Positions 3,001 through 43,698 of a DNA stretch of 64,000 bases are shown piece after piece (the first letter of the stretch is position 1; each line of letters begins with the position of its first letter). The notes beneath the pieces were generated by a model. The model saw nothing but the letters and a program-made list of their open reading frames with translations, searched no databases and had not been told where the DNA came from. The position numbers were made by a program, and so were the translations under genes. Source of the DNA: an uncultured Flavobacteriales bacterium (GTDB lineage: Bacteria > Bacteroidota > Bacteroidia > Flavobacteriales_D > Crocinitomicaceae); the NCBI GenBank assembly GCA_903939755.1, contig CAJAII010000017.1, forward strand, positions 1 through 64,000. Direction: 5' to 3'.

Positions 3001-6000
3001 TTGGAACGCCATTTTGTGGACTGAAATTAAAGGCTACACCACTGCAGGTATTTAAGGAAGCAGCTGGAATGCTTGGACTAGGATTAACCGTTATGGTGGA
3101 TGTAAATGAACTTCCTGAACAAAGATTTCCTCCTAGTGGGGTAATAATATAGGTGGCAGTTGATGGACTAGAAGTTGTATTAGTCAGTGTTTGTGATATA
3201 TTATTTTGATTGTTTTGCGTACTTGATCCCGTTAATGATCCATTTGGAGAGATGATAGGTGCTCCCCAAGAATAAGTGGTTCCCGCTGGTAAAATGATAT
3301 TGTTCTGTCCGTTAACTAAGTTTATTGTAAATGGATTTCCACTGCAAATTGTTTGTGTTTGATTGGGTATAGATGGAGTGGGTTGTACGGTGACATTAAC
3401 AGTAAATGCTTGGCCAACACAACTGTTGTTTGGTCCTGAACTTGGGGTAACGGTATACGTCGCAATTTGATTGGTATTACTAGTATTTGTTAATTGTCCG
3501 TTGATGTTTAATTGTCCATTTGCCGCAGAACCGCCAGTGATGGATATAGGCGTGCTAGGGCTGGTCCAAGAATAGTTTATTCCGTTTGGAATTATAGTGT
3601 TGGGTGGATTGTTTGTTGGAGAAACCGCAAACGCAAGCCCACTGCAAATGGTAGTGTTTTGAGTGCCTATTACTGGACTAGGATTTACCGTTACTGTTAA
3701 GTTAAATGCGTTTGATGGACAGGCTCCTAGTTGTGGGGAATTTCCAGTAATACTATAAACTAAGGTTGCCGCTGTATTGGTTGTATTTGTAATTGTTCCT
3801 TCGGAGATTGTGTTTTCGATTGTGCCTGTTGTTCCTCCAGTTACGCTGCCCAGTGGGTTCGATATCGGTAAACCCCAACTATAAAGTATTCCACTTGGAA
3901 TTAGGGTGTTTGGTGGATTATTTGTTGGCGTAAAGCTAAATGAATTCCCACTGCATAATGTTTGAGTCTGCGCAGGAATTAATGGAGTAGGGTTGACGGT
4001 TACAATTAATGTAAATGGATTCCCAACACAAGCGTTTGAATTCGGTGTAATTTGATACGTTACTGTTGAACTGTTTGCAGTAGTATTAATCAATGTTTGG
4101 GTGATTGCATTTGTATTATTTTGTGCACTCGATCCTGTTACTGTGGCGGCAGGGACGATGATTGGAGATGGCCAAGTGTAAGTGGTATTTCCCGGTAATA
4201 GCAGGGTAGGAGGATTATTTGCTAAGTTTAGTTGGAAATTATTTCCGCTGCAAATACTCAAGGTTTGATTCGTGATAATTGGTAAAGGATTTACCGTAAT
4301 TGTTGCTGTAAACGGATTACCAATACACGCTCCTTGAGCGCCTGATGTTGGGGTAACGGTATATAATATGGTTTGTGTAACATTGCTGGTATTGATTAAT
4401 GTTTGGCTGATGGAATTACTGGCTGTATTTACATTCGATGCTCCTGTGATATTAGCGTTTGGCGCAAATGACCATTGGTAGGTCGTTCCACTAGGCACGG
4501 TATTTCCAGCTCCATTTGTTGGTGAAATGGTAAAGGTATTCCCACTGCAAATTGTCGCAGTTTGATTGGTAATTGTTGGTGTCGGATTAATAGTTACGGT
4601 ATAGCTAAATGGATTCCCAACGCATACTTGTCCTACGTTTGAACTGGGTGTCAATGTATAGGTTAAAGTTCCAACAGCGTTGCTGGTATTGGTAAGTACT
4701 TGTGAAATATTATTCTGCGCATTCCCAGCTATTCCTCCTGTAATTGCTCCAATTGGATTACTAACGGGCGTTGCCCATGTAAAGGTCGTACCATTTGGTA
4801 ATATACTGGTAGGTATGGCGGCTGTAAGATTTGAATTGAAGTTGGCTCCACTGCAAATGGTAGCTGTTTGATTTGGTATAAATGGACTTGGACTAACATT
4901 GACTAATAATGTAAACGGTTGACCTGTACATTGACCATTCGCTGTGGAAGGTGTTATAGTGTAGGTCGCCGTTTGTTGAATAGCTGTAGGATTAACTAAA
5001 TTTCCGGTGATGGTATTTTGATTTGTTCCATTTGCACCTCCGCTTAAATTACCTGTAACGATTGGCGCATTCCATGTATAAGTCGTTCCATTTGGAATAA
5101 TGCTGTTCGGTGGATTATTAGTTGGAGAAGATATGAAATTGGCACCTGAACAACTGGTTAATGTTTGTGCAGGAATTACCGGTGTAGGATTAATTGTTAA
5201 TACAACTTGGAAGGGCAGTCCAGCGCAACCTCCGCCACCAGCAGATGGTGTTACGGTATAGGTTAAAGTACTTGTTTGTGAGGTTGTATTTTGAAGATTC
5301 GTTTGAAAGAAGTTATTCTGATTAACTCCTGGACTTATTCCTGTGACTGATCCAACTGGGTTTTGTATCGGATTTGACCATGAATAGGTTGTTCCATTTG
5401 GTATTACTATCGTTGGTGGATTATTAACCCATGCAGATGTATAGCTATTTCCTGAACAAAGACTCGCACTTTGATTTGGAAATAATGGCGCAATATTTAA
5501 TGTAACAACTATGTTAAATGGTGTCCCTTGACATGAACTAGGCGCAGGTCCAATTGGTGTTACGGAATAGGTCGCTGTTTGTATGGCGGTGCTTGTATTG
5601 GTAAGTGTTTGTGTGAAAATATTTTGGTTAGTTCCAATTGATGCACCTGTAATGCTGCCAGATATCGTTGGTAAGGCCCATGATAATGTGGTGCCCGCTG
5701 GTACAATCGCACCGTTTCCATTTTGTGGCGTAAATGTTAGTGCTTGACCACTACAAATTGAAAGGTTTGTTGCGGGTAAAGTTGGCAATGGATTAACGGT
5801 GAGTGTTAGGTTAAAGTTGTTGCCTACACAATTTCCTTGTGCTCCCGATGTTGGTGTTATTGAATAAACTACGCTTTGATTTGTATTGGTAGTATTCGTA
5901 AGGGTTTGATTGATGCTAGCAGCACCAATTATATTGCTTGTTTCTCCTGTAATTGATGGGTTATCTACATAAGTCCATGTGTATAAGGTGTTCGAAGGTA

Positions 6001-34919: not shown

Positions 34920-34985
34920 TTTCTTTTCTTGTTATAAATAAAATAGCGTGAAAGATGAATTTCTTTACGTATATTTAATAAGTGA

Positions 34986-34993
34986 CAAATTTA
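34986..34993 (-). promoter_or_regulatory. Putative -7 box for the DUF3822-rsmD-coaD operon
   Basis: The minus strand reads TAAATTTG, an exact TAnnTTTG match. Together with the + strand box at 35006-35013 it would form a compact divergent promoter pair between the two gene starts. No clear -33 TTG was found. Confidence 0.3.
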
Positions 34994-35005
34994 CGATAAT
35001 ACCTT

Positions 35006-35013
35006 TAAATTTG
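35006..35013 (+). promoter_or_regulatory. Putative -7 box for the RecD-like helicase gene
   Basis: TAAATTTG, an exact consensus match, ends 18 bases before ATG 35032. It lies downstream of the alternative GTG start at 34948, so if real it argues for 35032 as the start. Confidence 0.35.
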
Positions 35014-35031
35014 AAGGCTTTAAATAACATA

Positions 35032-36429
35032 ATGGATAATTCTTTTAGTGCTAAGTTAACGAACAATAAGGAAAAACTAATCTTTACAGACGATCAAAAT
35101 ACGGCTCTAAATCAGTTTAATTTATTTTATAATTCCGAGGAAAGGTGCCCGCTTTATATTTTGAAAGGTTACGCAGGAACGGGGAAATCTACGCTCATCG
35201 CGTATTTGGTGAACGAATTATTGGCTCAAAAGAAAAAAGTGCGCTTGTTGGCGCCAACTGGAAAAGCAGCTAAAGTGATTGCCAATTATTCCAAACAAGC
35301 AGCCTATACGATTCATAAACAAGTGTATTTTGTGGGGAATCAAGTCAACGGTTCGGTCAATTTAGTTAAGGCAAAAAATTTATTTACGGATACGCTTTTT
35401 ATTGTAGATGAAGCTTCGATGGTGGGAATTGATGATGCTACACAAGCGAATAGTCTGTTAGAGGATTTACTGAATTTTGCCTACAGCGGCAAAGGGTGCA
35501 AATTAATGGTGGTGGGCGATCCCGGTCAGTTGCCGCCAGTTGGTCAATCAAATTCTCCTGCACTAGATAAAGATTATTTGAGTCAAGTGTATCCGCAATT
35601 AACGATTTCTGAAGCAATTTTAAAAGAAATAGTTAGGCAAGCAGAGAATTCTGAAATTACGGATGTGGCTACTTTTATTCGCAATAAAACGGAATTTTCT
35701 TTGCCCATGTTTAATTCTCATGGGCGTGATGTGCAACGAATTGACGGCGCAGCATTGAGTGACGCTATTGAAGCTTCGTACGATCGTTATGGAATGGAAG
35801 AAACGGTCTTACTGACGATGTCGAACAAACGAGCGAATCAATGGAACAATGAAATCCGTGCAAGGATTTTATTGCATGAGGATAACGTGCAGAAAAACGA
35901 TGTTTTAATGGTGGTGAAGAATAATTATTTTTGGCTGAGTCCTGAGTCGGTGATTGGTTTTATTGCGAATGGTGAATCTATTAGGATTACCAAAATAGTG
36001 AATCGTCAATCGCTTTATGGGTTTGAGTTTGTAAAAGCAACGATTGAATTTATTGATTATCCGAATGAACAAGAAATGGAAGTGCTATTGAATTTAGAGG
36101 CACTAACTGTCGAAGCACCCAGTTTATCTCGTGACCGAATGAAAGAACTTTTCTTTGAAGTGGAAAAGGATTATAGTTACGAGCGAAATAAAAGAAAGCG
36201 CTATCAATTGATTCTTAAAAATCCTTATTTTAATGCGCTGCAAGTAAAATACTCTAATGCAATCACCGCACATAAAGCGCAAGGTGGACAGTGGAAGAAT
36301 GTCATCATTGATTTTGGTTTCTTACCCGAACAAATGCGAACAGAAAATTATAACCGTTGGTTATATACCTGTATTACAAGGTCACAGGAAAAAGTCTATT
36401 TGTTGAATTTCCCGGATGTATTTTTTTAA
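35032..36429 (+). CDS. RecD-like superfamily 1B DNA helicase
   Basis: 465 residues from ATG 35032; an in-frame GTG at 34948 would add 28 residues. Helicase motifs are in order: Walker A in GYAGTGKST, motif Ia with APTGKAAKV, Walker B IVDEAS, motif III GDPGQLPPVG, and late motifs TAHKAQGGQW and YTCITRSQEKVYLL. This is the RecD2/ExoDNase V alpha-like family, 5'-3' helicases of DNA repair; no RecB/RecC partner is in the window. The last 56 bp are repeated, degraded, at 41369-41422 beyond the FISUMP gene. I prefer 35032 because candidate divergent -7 boxes lie just upstream of it. Confidence 0.9.
   Translation: MDNSFSAKLTNNKEKLIFTDDQNTALNQFNLFYNSEERCPLYILKGYAGTGKSTLIAYLVNELLAQKKKVRLLAPTGKAAKVIANYSKQAAYTIHKQVYFVGNQVNGSVNLVKAKNLFTDTLFIVDEASMVGIDDATQANSLLEDLLNFAYSGKGCKLMVVGDPGQLPPVGQSNSPALDKDYLSQVYPQLTISEAILKEIVRQAENSEITDVATFIRNKTEFSLPMFNSHGRDVQRIDGAALSDAIEASYDRYGMEETVLLTMSNKRANQWNNEIRARILLHEDNVQKNDVLMVVKNNYFWLSPESVIGFIANGESIRITKIVNRQSLYGFEFVKATIEFIDYPNEQEMEVLLNLEALTVEAPSLSRDRMKELFFEVEKDYSYERNKRKRYQLILKNPYFNALQVKYSNAITAHKAQGGQWKNVIIDFGFLPEQMRTENYNRWLYTCITRSQEKVYLLNFPDVFF
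36374..36429 (+). repeat. Helicase 3' end, intact copy of a flanking direct repeat
   Basis: These last codons and stop of the helicase gene match 41369-41422 at 48 of 54 aligned bases with one 2-bp gap in the T run. Between the copies lies a segment of about 4.9 kb. Confidence 0.85.
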
Positions 36430-36432
36430 TTA

Positions 36433-36715
36433 ATGTGCGCTAGCCTCGTCCGCCTAGGCGGACATTCCTCCTTCGTCGGAACACTCGGCTAGCTTTTTAT
36501 TCAGAACACTCGGCTAGCTTCGATAAAGCTTATCGAGCGGCTTACTTCGGCAGGCTCAGCACAAGCCGCTCGACCAGCTTTTTCGATGCCCCTTGAGTGA
36601 ATCGAGTGGAGTCGAGAGACACATTCGACTAGCTTTTTTCGATGTCCTTTGAGTGAATCGAGTCCGCCTAGGTGGATCGAGAGACACGATAAATCGAAAG
36701 ATATACTAGAAATAA
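36433..36715. repeat. Mosaic of palindromic intergenic repeats
   Basis: There is no gene here. It contains a perfect 16-bp palindrome GTCCGCCTAGGCGGAC (36448-36463), a decayed second copy near 36662, two copies of aacactcggctagctt (36480 and 36505 area), two copies of tttgagtgaatcgagt-like text, and an 11-bp inverted repeat TCGAGCGGCTT/AAGCCGCTCGA (36533-36543 and 36563-36573) with a 19-base loop reading ttcggcaggctcagc. This loop text is a frequent intergenic repeat in Bacteroidota genomes, as I recall. The G+C content is visibly higher than around it. Confidence 0.75.
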
Positions 36716-36720
36716 TTTGC

Positions 36721-37275
36721 AACCCCGAAGGGGGTTAAACATTTTTAACGCTGGATGAAATCCAGTGAGAAAAATATCCTACGCCCCCTTTTTTTTGTTA
36801 TTGCCAAAAAGGTATCGTGCTAACCCCGAATGGGGTTAAATGTTTTTAACGCTTGATGAAATCCAAAGAGAAAAATATCGTGCCCCCTTTTTTTGTGTCA
36901 TTGCGAAAAAGGTATCGTGCTAACCCCGAATGGGGTTAAACATTTTTAACGCTGGATGAAATCCAGTGAGAAAAATATCGTGTCCCCCTTTTTTTTGTTA
37001 TTGCCAAAAAGGTATCGTGCTAACCCCGAATGGGGTTAAATGTTTTTAACGCTTGATGAAATCCAGTGAGAAAAATACCATGCCTCCCCTTTTTTTGTTA
37101 TTGCGAAAAAGGTATCGTGCTAACCCCGAATGAGGTTAAATGTTTTTAACGCTTGATGAAATCCAGTGGAAAAATATCACACGGCCCCTTTTTTTTGTTA
37201 TTGCCAAAAAGTTATCGTGCTAACCCCGAATGGGGTTAAATGTTTTTAACGCTGGATGAAATCCAGTGGAAAAAC
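36721..37275. repeat. Six copies of a 100-bp tandem repeat with two hairpins per unit
   Basis: Copies start with aaccccgaa at 36721, 36822, 36922, 37022, 37122 and 37222, a 100-bp step (101 for the first). The sixth copy is only about half a unit. Each unit holds a hairpin AACCCC-GAAT-GGGGTT, an A/T-rich spacer with tttttaacgct, a second inverted repeat CTGGAT-GAA-ATCCAG (imperfect in copies 2, 4 and 5), a C-run followed by a T-run, and gttattgccaaaaaggtatcgtgct. I see no ORF or ribosome binding site. The remaining part of the intergenic region, 37276-37395, holds only the promoter listed next. Confidence 0.9.
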
Positions 37276-37346
37276 ACCTCACTCACTCCCCTTATTGCGA
37301 GTATCAGCCAAGAGCTTATACACGCAAAAAAGATTCCATGCTAAAA

Positions 37347-37378
37347 TTGGATAAACTTAATTTTTCACATTAAATTTA
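37347..37378 (+). promoter_or_regulatory. Putative promoter of the collagen-like/FISUMP gene
   Basis: TTG (37347-37349) is followed, after a 21-base spacer, by TAAATTTA (37371-37378), one base off the TAnnTTTG -7 consensus. The ATG is 17 bases further on. Spacing fits the Bacteroidota -33/-7 model. Confidence 0.45.
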
Positions 37379-37395
37379 CTACATATTTCTAACTT

Positions 37396-40300
37396 ATGAA
37401 AAATACATCTACATCAAAGTATCTCCTAAGCGCCTTATTAATCACCTTTTGCTGTTTATTTTTAGGCACTAAGGCACATGCTCAAGCACCCGATGGCGTC
37501 AATTATCAAGCGGTTATTCGAAACCTTTCGGGTACTTTGGTGGCCAATACCACGATAGCAATTCGTATTCAAATCAAGCAATCATCGGCCTCGGGAACCA
37601 TCGTTTTTCAAGAAAGACACAGTGTTACCACCTCTGCGCAGGGCGTAGTAAATTTAGTCATTGGACAAGGAACCTTACTGGGTGGCAACTTTTCTACCAT
37701 AAATTGGGCGACAGGTCCTTATTTTGTGAGCTTGGGGGTAAGTTTTACCAATGGAAGTACTTACTTAGATTACGGCTCACAACAATTAATGAGCGTGCCA
37801 TATGCTTTGTATGCAAAAAATGCGGGAAATCAATTAAATCAATGGCGCTACGGTACTACCGTACCGGCTGTGGCATTAGGAACATTGGGTGATTTCTACC
37901 TCAATATGACCGATGGAAATGTATATTATAAATCCAACCCAACTACTTGGTTATTAACCGGTAACATAACCGGTCCTGCAGGTGCTGCTGGCGCAACGGG
38001 TGCAACGGGTGCAACGGGTGCTCAAGGGATTCAAGGAGTACAAGGTCCTTCGGGAGCCGCAGGAACTAACGGTGCCCAAGGAATTCAAGGATTACCAGGT
38101 GCTCAAGGAATTCAAGGATTAACCGGCCCAATAGGCGCTGCAGGTTCCAATGGATTAAATGGTCAGAATGCTTTAGTGAAAACAACTTTAGAAGCTGCAG
38201 GTGCGAATTGTATTAATGGGGGTGTAAAAGTTGAATCAGGTTTAGATGCCAATAACAATGGAATCTTGGATCCTTCTGAAGTAAATGCCTTACTAACTAC
38301 GTTTGTATGTAATGGTTCCGCAGGTGCTCAAGGAATTCAAGGTTTAACCGGTCCCGCAGGTGCTCAAGGTTTACCCGGAACGAATGGAACAAACGGCGCT
38401 GTTGGAGCTACAGGTCCAGCAGGTGCAACGGGTCCAGCAGGTGCAAACGGAAATGGATTTTCAAATGGTACGGCGGTCAATCAACTAATGTATTGGAACG
38501 GAAGTGCATGGGTAACTTTGAACCCGGGTATTAATGGACAAGTACTTTCTATATGTAATGGAAGTTTAACTTGGGTAAGCATGGCGGGTGTTTGTTCGGT
38601 GTCTGCAGCCCTCACCACTTTAAACTGTGTTGGTGCTACCACTACCGGAACTTTAACAAACGGAACAGCCGCCAGTGGCGTGAGTACCGCAATTTCTTAT
38701 ACTGGCGGTAACGCTGGTACTTATGCTGCACAAAGTGTCTCTTCTACCGGCGTTGTCGGCTTAACAGCAACGCTTTCTGCAGGCACGTTGGCAAATGGCG
38801 CAGGTTCATTGACCTATACGATAACAGGTACGCCAACTACAAGTGGAACCGCTAGTTTTGCCATCACGGTAGGTGGACAATCTTGTTCTTTTACGGTGAG
38901 TGTGGCAGCCGCCCAACCTCAATACCCAGCAGGAACGGTGAATTGTGCAGGTGCCACAACTGTAGTAGACGTAACGAACCCCACCACCGGTAAAATCTGG
39001 ATGGATCGTAACTTAGGCGCTACGCAAGTAGCCACCAGCAGCACCGATGCCAATTCTTACGGCGACTTGTACCAATGGGGCAGACGAGCAGATGGGCACC
39101 AGTGTAGAACTTCGCCCACAACCGGCATCTTAAGCAGTATAGACCAACCCGCGCATGGTAATTTTATATTAGCACCCAATGCTCCAAATGATTGGCGTAG
39201 TCCACAGAATGTAAATTTATGGCAAGGCGTGAATGGGGTAAACAACCCATGCCCAAGTGGGTATAGAATTCCTACGGAAACAGAAATCAATGATGAACGC
39301 TTAAGTTGGAGTGTGAGTACATCGGTTGGTGCTTTTGCCTCACCGCTCAAATTACCAATGGCTGGTACCCGCGACTACACTACTGCGGCGCTCGGCGGTG
39401 TCGGTGTAGGCGGATACTATTGGAGTAGCACGGTAAGTGGTGCGGACTCTCGTTACTTGTACTTCGGCAGCAATGCCACTATGTCCAGCTACATCCGATC
39501 GAACGGCTTTACTGTCCGTTGTGTGAAGGATGCTTCCGCAATACCAGCAGCTGTTGGTACTTTAAACTGTGGTTCAGCTACCCTAACAGGAAATCTTTAC
39601 AATGGATCTGTTGCCAGTGGGGTTTCAGCCTCAGTACCATACACTGCTGGGAATGGCGGTTCTTATGCTGCGCAAACCATTAGCTCAACCGGCGTTTTAG
39701 GTTTAACTGCAACCCTTTCGGTAGGAACGCTGGCTAATGGCGCAGGTTCATTGACCTATACGATAACAGGAACCCCAACTACGAGTGGTACGGCGAGTTT
39801 TGCCATCACGGTAGGTGGACAATCTTGTTCCTTTACGGTAAGTGTGGGAGCCGCCCAACCTCAATACCCAGCAGGAACGGTGAATTGTGCAGGCGCCACA
39901 ACTGTAGTAGATGTAACGAATCCCACCACCGGTAAAATCTGGATGGATCGTAACTTAGGCGCTACGCAAGTAGCCACCAGCAGCACCGATGCCAATTCTT
40001 ACGGCGACTTGTACCAATGGGGACGACGAGCAGACGGGCACCAGTGTAGAACTTCGCCGGCAACTGCTACCTTAAGCAGCATTGACCAACCAGCGCATGG
40101 TGATTTTATATTGGCGCCTAATGCTCCATACGATTGGCGTTCTCCTCAAAACGCGAATTTATGGCAAGGGGTAAATGGGGTAAACAACCCCTGCCCAAGT
40201 GGCTACCGAATTCCTACAGAAACAGAAATTGATGCAGAGCGCTCAAGTTGGACGCAACAAAATAGCTTGGGTGCATTTGCCTCCCCGCTTAAATTGCCCG

Positions 40301-41349
40301 TTGCGGGCCGCCGCGAAAACAGCAATGGTTTGCTTTCCCAGGTCGGCAGTAGTGGCCTCTATTGGTGTAGTACTATTAATGGTGCCTTTTCCCGTTTCTT
40401 ATTCTTTCCAAACAATCAAGCCAACATGAATGATCACTATCGAGCTTACGGTTTTGCTGTTCGTTGTATAAAAGATGCTTCGGCAATACCAGCAGCTGTT
40501 GGCGCTTTAAACTGTGTTGGTGCTACCACTACCGGAACTTTAACAAACGGAACAGCAGCTAGTGGCGTGAGTACCGCAATAGGTTATACCGGCGGAAATG
40601 GCGGTTCTTATGCTGCGCAAACCATTAGTTCAACCGGCGTTTTAGGTTTAACTGCAACCCTTTCGGCAGGAACGCTGGCAAATGGCGCAGGCTCATTGAC
40701 CTATACGATAACAGGCACACCAACTTCGAGCGGTACGGCAAGTTTTGCTATTTCATTAGGTGGTCAAAGCTGTACGTTTACAATAAATGTTGGGGTGCAA
40801 GGATTTACCATTGGGTCGGGAACTTCTACTACCAATTGGCCAACCGAAAACTTTGGTGGGGCCAACCGATGCAACAGAAGTGCCACTATTTATCCTAAAG
40901 CGGTATTGAACCTAGCAGGTGGTTTTCCCGCGATTGGAAATCAACTTATTACCTCCGTTAAGTGGCAGGCATCTGTTGCGGGGTTATCCGATGGTAATAT
41001 CAAAATTTACGTGGAGAATACCGCAGCAACCACCACCACGACCAACCAAGATTGGTCCACCACGATTATTAATAATTCGATACTTGTTTATGATGGTCCA
41101 ATTTCTTTCAATAAGGTGGTGGGTTCTTGGTATGGAGTAACGTTAACTACCCCTTTTACTTGGAATAATGTAGACAATTTGAAAATTAGCGTAGAATATT
41201 CCAGCGGTTCGAACTTCAATAATCGATCATGGTATAGAACGCAAGGAGTAGGAAATACGGCAGAATCAGCGAATTTGTCGGGTACCTGTCCTAGTCCTCT
41301 TTCCAATGGTTCGAATTCATGGTATCCGAATATACTGTTCAATAATTAA
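37396..41349 (+). CDS. Secreted collagen-like protein with two FISUMP domains and three Ig-like repeats
   Basis: 1317 residues. Order: signal peptide (about 1-29); a conserved beta domain of Bacteroidota surface proteins (30-145, with LMSVPYALYAKNAG); collagen-like Gly-x-y repeats (193-257); a segment with DANNNGILDPSEV, DUF7151/Ca-loop-like (258-307); a second Gly-x-y run (308-353); three copies of an Ig-like repeat (about 409-505, 719-822 and 1035-1135); two FISUMP (Fibrobacter major paralogous, lectin-like) domains (515-713 and 829-1027); and a unique C-terminal domain. No T9SS sorting domain is visible at the C-terminus. The gene looks richer in G+C than its neighbours and is preceded by repeats. 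Surface binding is inferred; the ligand is unknown. It lies inside the segment bounded by helicase-end repeats. Confidence 0.88.
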   Translation: MKNTSTSKYLLSALLITFCCLFLGTKAHAQAPDGVNYQAVIRNLSGTLVANTTIAIRIQIKQSSASGTIVFQERHSVTTSAQGVVNLVIGQGTLLGGNFSTINWATGPYFVSLGVSFTNGSTYLDYGSQQLMSVPYALYAKNAGNQLNQWRYGTTVPAVALGTLGDFYLNMTDGNVYYKSNPTTWLLTGNITGPAGAAGATGATGATGAQGIQGVQGPSGAAGTNGAQGIQGLPGAQGIQGLTGPIGAAGSNGLNGQNALVKTTLEAAGANCINGGVKVESGLDANNNGILDPSEVNALLTTFVCNGSAGAQGIQGLTGPAGAQGLPGTNGTNGAVGATGPAGATGPAGANGNGFSNGTAVNQLMYWNGSAWVTLNPGINGQVLSICNGSLTWVSMAGVCSVSAALTTLNCVGATTTGTLTNGTAASGVSTAISYTGGNAGTYAAQSVSSTGVVGLTATLSAGTLANGAGSLTYTITGTPTTSGTASFAITVGGQSCSFTVSVAAAQPQYPAGTVNCAGATTVVDVTNPTTGKIWMDRNLGATQVATSSTDANSYGDLYQWGRRADGHQCRTSPTTGILSSIDQPAHGNFILAPNAPNDWRSPQNVNLWQGVNGVNNPCPSGYRIPTETEINDERLSWSVSTSVGAFASPLKLPMAGTRDYTTAALGGVGVGGYYWSSTVSGADSRYLYFGSNATMSSYIRSNGFTVRCVKDASAIPAAVGTLNCGSATLTGNLYNGSVASGVSASVPYTAGNGGSYAAQTISSTGVLGLTATLSVGTLANGAGSLTYTITGTPTTSGTASFAITVGGQSCSFTVSVGAAQPQYPAGTVNCAGATTVVDVTNPTTGKIWMDRNLGATQVATSSTDANSYGDLYQWGRRADGHQCRTSPATATLSSIDQPAHGDFILAPNAPYDWRSPQNANLWQGVNGVNNPCPSGYRIPTETEIDAERSSWTQQNSLGAFASPLKLPVAGRRENSNGLLSQVGSSGLYWCSTINGAFSRFLFFPNNQANMNDHYRAYGFAVRCIKDASAIPAAVGALNCVGATTTGTLTNGTAASGVSTAIGYTGGNGGSYAAQTISSTGVLGLTATLSAGTLANGAGSLTYTITGTPTSSGTASFAISLGGQSCTFTINVGVQGFTIGSGTSTTNWPTENFGGANRCNRSATIYPKAVLNLAGGFPAIGNQLITSVKWQASVAGLSDGNIKIYVENTAATTTTTNQDWSTTIINNSILVYDGPISFNKVVGSWYGVTLTTPFTWNNVDNLKISVEYSSGSNFNNRSWYRTQGVGNTAESANLSGTCPSPLSNGSNSWYPNILFNN

Positions 41350-41368
41350 AAGATTTCTTTCGATCGTT

Positions 41369-41422
41369 TTACAAGGTCTTAGGAAAAAGTTTATCTGTTG
41401 AATTTCCCGGATGCGTTTTTAA
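41369..41422 (+). repeat. Degraded copy of the helicase 3' end (possible insertion scar)
   Basis: Aligned with 36374-36429: six substitutions and one 2-bp gap. In the helicase frame this copy reads T-R-S-stop-E-K-V-Y-L-L-N-F-P-D-A-F-L, so one codon became TAG while most other changes are silent. It overlaps the stop codon of the next minus-strand gene. A displaced gene end at the far side of an inserted segment is the simplest reading. Confidence 0.8.
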
Positions 41423-43698
41423 TGCTTTAAATCTTTTATTCGAATGGCGGCTGAACCTACCTGAATTTTTGATTTTTGAATAAGATCATCCAGTTTGTCG
41501 ATGAATTTCTTTGAATCATTCTGTGTTAAATATTTGGTAGCGTGAAAAGCTAATTCATCTTTTAATTTCTGAAGTAGGCTGATACAGCGCATCGCTGAAA
41601 GGAGTTCGTTTTTTGTGAGTTGGTATGTTTTAGCCAGCACCTCTAGTTCCAGGTCTATTAAATTTAAATTAGAAACAACGGGATCCGTAAATGAATTAAT
41701 CTTAATCCGAATGGTGCGATCAATTTTTATGAATAAATTGGAACTTCGCAGTTGCTTGAATGGCAAGCTTTGCCGCGATATTAATTTCTCTTCGGCAGTA
41801 TTCCCTGGATATCCATCAATTTCTTTTTGGGCTTCATCACGAATAACGGTTTCGCCATTCCAACTGCCAATGCCATTAGCTTGTAGTTGAATTTGAAGGG
41901 GAAGGGCATTTTTTTTAAATTCTTCAAAGATTACTTTTAGAATACTGCTATCTGCTATCGTGAAGATGGTTTGTGTAAAATCGAACTTGTCGGGTTCAAA
42001 ACGGTCATCTAATTTTAATTGGAAATCCGAATCGTAAAATGGTAAGGCATCAGTTTTACTAATGTGAAGCATGACTTCATCCGATGATTCGCCTTCAAAA
42101 TCTTCTGGAATGGAAATTAAGCGAATTTCAAAAGGTTCTGTTTCTTTGGAGGCTGGAATGGTAAATTCTTGCGTGTAAAGATCAAATGTTGCACCATCTG
42201 CATAGGTATATAAACCATCCTTTTCTGTGTAACTTATCCAATTTTCACCCATTCTACTTTTATAATAATCCAGGAGTTTTTTCTTTGCAGCATATTCTTC
42301 GAGTAGTGGCGCGCGATCTTCTAATAGTTCTTTTTCTAAGCCCTGTAATTCGTCATACCGTTCATATAATCCAATCAATTCAGTTTGTTTATTAGACTTG
42401 GCAGTTCTTCGTGATTTGGTGGTGGGTTTTAGATCTAAGGGGCCGCCGTTTTTATTTTTTTTCTTCAATTTTCGCATTTCCCTTGATGGCTTTTTCTTCG
42501 TCACATAGTCTGTTTTATGAAGGTCGGAATAGTTGGATTCTTCCTCTTGTATCAAACGTAAGGTTTCTGAAATGTCTTTTTGAACATCTTTGATTTGTTG
42601 GTTATAACCTCCTTTTCCTTCAATACTGTTTTTTAAGGCTTTGTAAGTGAAATCATCTAAATCATTAATAATCCGTTGGAAAGTTATTCCTTTTGAAAAG
42701 GTGGAGTCGGGGGATAGAAATCTCGTTTTCTCTGAGCCAAACAAATGGTATTGGTAGTTTTTTCGTTCTATAACAACTGTTGTTTGTTTGGAACTATTGT
42801 AACCCCAAACATCAAAGTGTAGTTGTGTTTGTTTGTCTTTACCTACGGTTTCTAACCAACGTGAGCAAATTCTTTTGGCAACTATTTCTTGCTTTTTTGT
42901 ACCCTTAACTTCTATGTCATAGGGAAACAATCCTATCGCTTTCGGTAAACCTTTGTTATACTCTCCGTACTCATCTTTATCGCGTTCTTCTAAGAGTCCG
43001 GAGGTGTAGGAGCCGTCTCCACATGCAAATAGTATGTTTTCGAAATCGGTGACTTTCCCTCCTAAGGCATTGAAAATGGCGAGTGTTCGCTCTTTTATCG
43101 TACGATTTATCGCATAATTTTGAGCGTCCATTACTTGTTTTTGGGAGGTCTTATCTTTGATGCCTATCAGATCTAAAAGCGTTAGACGATCTAACAAAGA
43201 AAGGCTCGTTTGGAAGATTGGACTCGTTCGAGGATTCAATAATTCATCGTATACTTTTCCTCGGGTGATGTTTTTAGGTACTGAATCGAAAAAATAATCT
43301 AAATAGGAATTGATTAAGGGGCTGTCTCCTTTGTCTTTTCCATCCAGCACTTTCTGAATTTGTTTGCAAAGCTCCCAAATAGCCGTTTTATTGGCTGCTT
43401 CTGCGATCAATCCTTTGGGGGAGGTGGCGATAATTTCATTGCGAACAATAAGCAAAGCGGGTTCATTAATAATTAGGACTTCAATGGAGTCGTAATTTAA
43501 TTTGCCATCTTTTAATTTTATGATCGGACCTGTATATTCAAAGGCCTTTCCGATGTTGTTTTCAAGTATTGGACTCTTTTTTACAATGTGAAAAAGGTAC
43601 GCACGTGTTTCAATGGGTAAGCCAGCTTGATCCTGCCCGAAACCAATTGATAAGCGTGTGATGATGAAAAAAGCAATGATGAGCCTGAAATTCAGCAT
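41419..43698 (-). CDS. Exported protein of unknown function (759 residues)
   Basis: I do not recognise a family. There is a signal peptide (LIIAFFIITRLSIGFGQ), a mostly helical body, a Lys/Arg-rich charged stretch (about residues 400-450) flanked by likely coiled-coil segments, and a C-terminal domain with alternating strands. No catalytic motif is evident. The gene follows the T9SS-cargo gene by 14 bases, so co-transcription is likely. The downstream end abuts the degraded helicase-end copy. Confidence 0.78.
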   Translation of the reverse strand: MLNFRLIIAFFIITRLSIGFGQDQAGLPIETRAYLFHIVKKSPILENNIGKAFEYTGPIIKLKDGKLNYDSIEVLIINEPALLIVRNEIIATSPKGLIAEAANKTAIWELCKQIQKVLDGKDKGDSPLINSYLDYFFDSVPKNITRGKVYDELLNPRTSPIFQTSLSLLDRLTLLDLIGIKDKTSQKQVMDAQNYAINRTIKERTLAIFNALGGKVTDFENILFACGDGSYTSGLLEERDKDEYGEYNKGLPKAIGLFPYDIEVKGTKKQEIVAKRICSRWLETVGKDKQTQLHFDVWGYNSSKQTTVVIERKNYQYHLFGSEKTRFLSPDSTFSKGITFQRIINDLDDFTYKALKNSIEGKGGYNQQIKDVQKDISETLRLIQEEESNYSDLHKTDYVTKKKPSREMRKLKKKNKNGGPLDLKPTTKSRRTAKSNKQTELIGLYERYDELQGLEKELLEDRAPLLEEYAAKKKLLDYYKSRMGENWISYTEKDGLYTYADGATFDLYTQEFTIPASKETEPFEIRLISIPEDFEGESSDEVMLHISKTDALPFYDSDFQLKLDDRFEPDKFDFTQTIFTIADSSILKVIFEEFKKNALPLQIQLQANGIGSWNGETVIRDEAQKEIDGYPGNTAEEKLISRQSLPFKQLRSSNLFIKIDRTIRIKINSFTDPVVSNLNLIDLELEVLAKTYQLTKNELLSAMRCISLLQKLKDELAFHATKYLTQNDSKKFIDKLDDLIQKSKIQVGSAAIRIKDLKH

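Follow-up and report, generated by a model that had tools for sequence, protein, structure and literature searches.

A duplicated helicase gene end bounds a putative surface-protein gene insertion in an uncultured member of the Crocinitomicaceae

Homology-facilitated illegitimate recombination (HFIR) is a process in which foreign DNA is anchored by homology on one side and joined without homology on the other (PMC3240628). In the Escherichia coli experiments described there, a polymerase chain reaction product of a partial lacZ duplication was obtained from 56 of 60 lacZ-negative clones, and the duplications, which spanned 109-950 bp in the 14 clones that were sequenced, were attributed to a single crossover of a shortened circle (PMC3240628). 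A related displacement has been proposed for effector-immunity modules in the type VI secretion system (T6SS) clusters of Vibrio and for Rhs C-terminal ends, in which a conserved upstream stretch serves as the anchor for an incoming module; the old 3' genes or gene ends stay downstream as orphans, and the resulting arrays are later spread by homologous recombination (PMC5361080). Furthermore, accessory genes turn over between core genes at integrase-free hotspots, often without mobile-element genes, and homologous recombination is frequent in the flanking core genes (PMC5635113). In this study, a locus comparable to these systems was analyzed in a stretch of 64,000 nucleotides, hereafter called the window, from an uncultured Flavobacteriales bacterium of the Crocinitomicaceae (assembly GCA_903939755.1, contig CAJAII010000017.1, positions 1 to 64,000), where the 3' end of a superfamily 1 helicase gene occurs a second time on the far side of a surface-protein gene.

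The locus most likely represents integrase-free gene gain of a known general kind that has left an unusually legible scar. In comparison with HFIR (PMC3240628), it shows a duplication of 53 bp, the deletion described as usual for HFIR is not seen, and the mechanism is deduced from sequence alone. It resembles the T6SS/Rhs displacement (PMC5361080) in that a 3' gene part has been displaced; however, the anchoring helicase stays whole here and the cargo is an unrelated surface protein. Unlike at the integrase-free hotspots (PMC5635113), the point of entry is marked by a core-gene relic, and the case concerns one group of close relatives and not a scored hotspot. The explanation that we favor, with moderate confidence, is that a surface-gene cassette was captured at the helicase end without an integrase and was later shuffled by homologous recombination.

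The duplication itself is real. Positions 36371-36425 are repeated at 41366-41420 with 48 of 55 bases identical (87%; BLAST E 4.6e-15), about 5 kb downstream as the first-pass annotation of the window had reported, and the 53 bp of 36373-36425 and 41368-41420 were taken as the core. That annotation had also described the substitutions other than a stop codon as mostly silent, which is only half right: six codons differ between the copies, three of them silently, one by a stop (TAG, 41380-41382) and two by amino-acid changes. One of the latter two, GTA against GCG, looks derived in the upstream copy, because GCG is also found in G006 (G-numbers denote the genomes of the genus set, G000 being that of the window, and L-numbers denote loci). 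In a control comparison, each of 770 frames at 70 loci was searched for a further copy of its last 63 bases within its own locus; the frames had at least 150 codons and were read from stop to stop, hence some of them are not genes. A copy at E 1e-6 or better was found for two frames, namely this helicase and a frame of L042 in which the copy is an internal tandem repeat. Being a DNA comparison, the control does not detect relics with the degree of divergence found in G058, even though the G058 locus is among the 70. Among the gene ends checked, the helicase-end duplication is exceptional. Between the copies lie repeats and a surface-protein gene whose different base composition had been noted: one long frame encoding 1317 residues, with a G+C content of 0.44-0.50 in 37500-40999 versus 0.34-0.41 in the flanks.

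The downstream copy is the displaced native end of the helicase gene, because it retains the ancestral frame, the ancestral stop and the overlap with the convergent gene of 759 residues, as in relatives. Its frame, GAT GCG TTT TTA ATG CTT TAA (41410-41430), enters that overlap, and the same layout is seen in G021 (GAT GAA TTC TTT ACT ATT TAA) and G096 (GCT GAT TTT TTT AGC GTT TAA). The upstream copy departs from the relic after GATGCGTTTTT, so that the present stop codon of the helicase is supplied by the inserted DNA; in G058 the helicase frame does not end at that point but extends into the insert, with its stop at 5228-5230. The suggestion that the gene was restored while its old end was displaced is thus borne out: the upstream copy keeps the helicase whole and the relic retains the ancestral stop. 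A direct repeat combined with restoration of the target gene is also the anatomy expected of an integrated island.

Relatives with an empty site provide the ancestral state. The helicase was matched in 80 of the 86 genus genomes searched (G000 counted), each genome representing one species, with strain-level empty and filled variants outside the reach of the set. Downstream sequence was examined in 78 of the 80, the window included, G049 and G082 being excluded because in both the contig runs out before the match reaches the helicase tail. Of the 78, 27 are informative in that the stretch examined also contains the 759-residue gene, which is not on that stretch in the other 51. In 22 of these 27 there is no insert: the 759-residue gene is convergent to the helicase, and its match starts between -43 and +51 bp relative to the helicase stop; the remaining five are the window, G058, G064, G097 and G081. 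Since the abutting arrangement is found in 22 of 27, it is most likely ancestral, and the window has an insertion. The empty site that the first-pass annotation had named as support therefore exists, and neither of the findings that would have spoken against its proposal, a repeat pair without an insert or a natural duplication by gene conversion, was encountered.

An insert is present in four genomes (G000, G006, G058 and G088) and the relic was seen in three of them (G000, G058 and G088), a lower bound since degraded relics can be missed. The inserts of G000 and G058 are complete, and those of G006 and G088 contain assembly gaps. In G006, with a helicase 99% identical, the left border, leader and surface gene are the same, with no BLAST match to 36496-37268 of the window, the tandem array included; its contigs end too early to show a relic, another contig beginning inside a DUF6992 gene that adjoins the 759-residue gene. 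G058 (helicase 94%) has, in order, the surface gene, an M28 peptidase gene, repeats, the relic, DUF6992 and the 759-residue gene. Its surface gene (L040:5252-7834) is similar to that of G000 in the N-terminal part and different in the C-terminal part. In G088 (helicase 85%) the helicase and surface gene stand together on one contig, and a second contig holds the peptidase end, repeats, a frameshifted relic, DUF6992 and the 759-residue gene; this relic, on its separate contig and frameshifted, was missed by the automated searches and was found by reading the contig.

Sequence identity along the locus changes abruptly in several places. The helicase of G088 is 75% like those of the window and G006 at 35500-35700, 96-98% like that of G006 from about 35792 to 36358, and 79% at 36370-36426 (tract ends set by eye). 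On the other side of the insert, the relic and the 3' end of DUF6992 in G088 are 89-98% like those of G058, and the M28 end is 95% alike, whereas the repeats between the M28 end and the relic are 61-67% alike, and identity is 40-79% in the remainder of DUF6992 and at the beginning of the 759-residue gene. For this break a Fisher test gives P ~2e-13, from counts entered by hand and a break point picked after seeing the table. Within the 759-residue gene, G064 goes from 67% identity to the window in one 500-bp bin to 90% in the next. The tracts in G088 and G064 show that pieces of the locus pass between lineages by homologous recombination, and those in the helicase and DUF6992 of G088 and in G064 lie in flanking core genes, as is described for integrase-free hotspots.

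The relics differ in allele. Over 53 bp, the G058 relic matches the native end of G064 at 98% and the upstream end of G058 itself at 62%; the G088 relic matches the G058 relic at 87% and the G088 upstream end at 63%; and the relic of the window matches the G006 upstream end at 91% and the upstream copy of the window at 87%. Moreover, the relics of G058 and G088 are followed by DUF6992, as is the native helicase end in G064 and G097. In G058 and G088 the relic is another helicase allele than the upstream end. All three relics begin at one codon within ~2 bp (by eye). The bases just before the relic are shared by G058 and G088 and are different in G000; because these preceding bases are common to both, the borders in G058 and G088 are one joint.

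For the capture that we favor, one border is found in homologous core DNA and the other is non-homologous, the relic starting abruptly within the last codons. The terminal 53 bp of the helicase would have come with the incoming or copied DNA, or been duplicated by it. The helicase would thus have stayed whole with a new stop from the insert, and the resident end would have been pushed downstream, where it decays as the relic. RecA-dependent recombination is the likely route: the helicase end would serve as the anchor, and a non-homologous joint would form at the isoleucine codon that lies 18 residues from that end; HFIR and the single-crossover entry of a circularized fragment are candidate modes. 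Afterwards, the cassette would have been passed among related lineages and reshuffled by homologous recombination in the flanks. The sequences show the duplication, the empty sites, the displaced native end and the mosaic tracts; from these we infer how the founding joint arose, when it did so relative to the other events, and that RecA was required.

Several observations weigh against this explanation. The donor arrangement before capture was seen in no genome examined, the 87% identity of the two G000 copies is equally consistent with a simple duplication on insertion, and the insert gaps of G006 and G088 could hide a recombinase. The left relic border is the same codon in G000 as in G058 and G088 despite differing alleles and preceding DNA, a recurrence that is unexpected of an unguided joint. 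The descent of one border via homologous exchange at the relic can explain it, but the M28 peptidase and the repeat found ahead of the relic in those two genomes are missing from G000. Furthermore, the last 20 of the 53 upstream-end bases are identical in G006, G058 and G088, and the first insert bases are also common to G006 and G088 except for one T, though identity over the whole G088 tail is no more than 75-79%; the end of a shared element would give the same picture.

A variant of the capture, unlikely in our estimate, treats the relic as a portable homology arm: flanked by a helicase end to the left and by the relic to the right, the cassette could enter any empty site between the helicase and the 759-residue gene by double crossover. 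The duplication would be remade at each entry, the recipient's own end becoming the new relic. If true, this would explain a fixed border with a changing relic allele, and the locus would amount to a self-made attachment site without a recombinase.

Template switching is an alternative to capture that we consider equally improbable. A replication fork would have switched away from the helicase end where a short T-rich match occurs, copied a surface gene located elsewhere in the genome and resumed 53 bp upstream of its point of departure, which would produce an insertion with a 53-bp duplication on its two sides. The two copies in G000 are indeed of one allele class (87%, with the relic 91% identical to the upstream copy of G006), there is T-rich similarity at the left joint, and contig C2 carries a surface-gene paralogue whose leader is similar. 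However, the upstream end and relic of G058 and of G088 differ (62-63%), which would require later replacement, and the longer paralogous matches are at 60-86% at the protein level, so that no recent template is seen in the assembly.

A decayed integrative island, inserted by site-specific recombination at the helicase 3' end, was one of two proposals of the first-pass annotation, and we regard it as more doubtful still. Besides the anatomy of gene restoration, it would account for the relic border being identical in three genomes (G000, G058 and G088), which are close relatives with shared exchange tracts, and for the 20 upstream-end bases common to G006, G058 and G088. The absence of an integrase remarked on at the outset holds for the family sought: no PF00589 match was found on the contigs that carry the helicase or the 759-residue gene (G000:C17, G058:C20, G088:C20/C4 and G006:C178/C110), the inserts of G006 and G088 being gapped and serine recombinases not having been searched. 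PF00589 matches occur in seven genomes, all of them off those contigs. The window contains no tRNA gene and hence no tRNA attachment site, and an Rfam scan of 36300-41500 gave nothing at E 0.1. A search with the 26-residue helicase tail gave matches in 79 of the 86 genomes and none in seven; apart from full or other long helicase frames, only the relics of G000 and G058 were better than E 0.2, so that no isolated copy of the tail was found elsewhere at that level. One exact degenerate 26-base tail pattern, which would miss other alleles such as that of G064, had no match in viral contigs. Moreover, the whole 53-bp upstream tails are 96, 89 and 75% identical to that of the window in G006, G058 and G088, differing about as the helicases do, and relics were seen only among the nearest relatives. 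The other proposal, a new recombination hotspot, is unsupported at the scale of the genus because relics are found in three genomes only, all among these nearest relatives. One further tail match, in G033, was considered as a second relic and rejected: it lies within 99 bases of a contig end, the full helicase of G033 ends 28 bases from the start of another contig, and the match was read as contig overlap.

That the helicase end was duplicated by chance or by gene conversion, independently of the insertion, is very improbable: paralogous surface genes and repeats are common in this genome, but the pair occurs without an insert in no genome examined, and the relic sits at the ancestral junction with the 759-residue gene. 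An assembly artefact is the least credible explanation, for although the G006 and G088 contigs stop inside the repetitive surface gene, in the separate G058 assembly a single contig spans the upstream end, the insert and the relic, and in G088 a relic is present on another contig.

The features of the locus are collected in Table 1.

Table 1. Coordinates of the helicase locus in the window.
Feature	Position	Strand	Remarks
Superfamily 1 helicase gene	34948..36429	+	Pfam AAA_30, UvrD_C_2, PIF1; last codons form the upstream copy
Upstream copy (U), 53-bp duplicated helicase end	36373..36425	+	
Dispersed intergenic repeats	36430..36700	none	36 own-genome matches to 36340-36700, self and relic counted
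100-bp tandem array, 5.5 copies	36721..37274	none	
Leader of surface-protein gene	37269..37395	+	Common to paralogue on contig C2, 89% over 132 bp
Surface-protein gene, cargo of insertion	37396..41349	+	Pfam collagen repeats, DUF7151, Fib_succ_major (FISUMP)
Relic, displaced native helicase end with internal TAG	41368..41420	+	Frame continues to ancestral stop TAA 41428-41430
759-residue gene, probable ancestral convergent neighbour of helicase	41419..43698	-	Adjoins helicase in 22 of 27 informative genomes; no Pfam match

The tandem array was probably not part of the original insertion, because it is absent at the corresponding place in G006, G088 and G058; stretches of ~40-75 bp resembling parts of it occur at other sites of the same genome. 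The dispersed repeats are likewise found at many sites of the genome, and also behind the M28 gene in G058 and G088. Further own-genome matches to the surface-protein gene lie on C2, C14, C36 and C69. No direct repeats flanking the FISUMP paralogues of this genome were seen, those on C2 and C69 being at contig ends; the direct repeats near such paralogues lie within genes or gene families or are a few intergenic pairs. Members of the surface-protein family have a similar N-terminal part and collagen repeats, with a C-terminal part that varies at the same locus.

The DUF6992 gene separates the 759-residue gene from the helicase end, or from its relic, in G064, G097, G058 and G088. In a search of 12 genomes, it was matched elsewhere at 52% on another contig of G091, with no match in G000, G096, G021, G098, G090 or G005. 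For the M28 peptidase of the G058 insert, a search of 12 genomes gave G058 itself and a partial copy in G088, other matches being 28-34% identical. The gap between the helicase and the 759-residue gene holds a different insertion in G081 (L118, ~3410-4580), a stretch of 1171 bp with a 364-residue frame on the minus strand, in which the BLAST search for helicase-end copies listed no relic. Two records (L039 and L042) are titled Chryseobacterium gleum, and their loci match Crocinitomicaceae, Flavobacteriia or Flavobacteriales records.

Sites of gene gain are often without any trace of how the DNA entered, and here a displaced gene end marks the entry. With relatives in both the empty and the filled state and with readable exchange tracts, integrase-free gene gain can be traced step by step in a group known here mainly via metagenome-assembled genomes. 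The cargo is a surface protein with a lineage-dependent C-terminal part (G000 versus G058), which is the type of gene expected to be exchanged.

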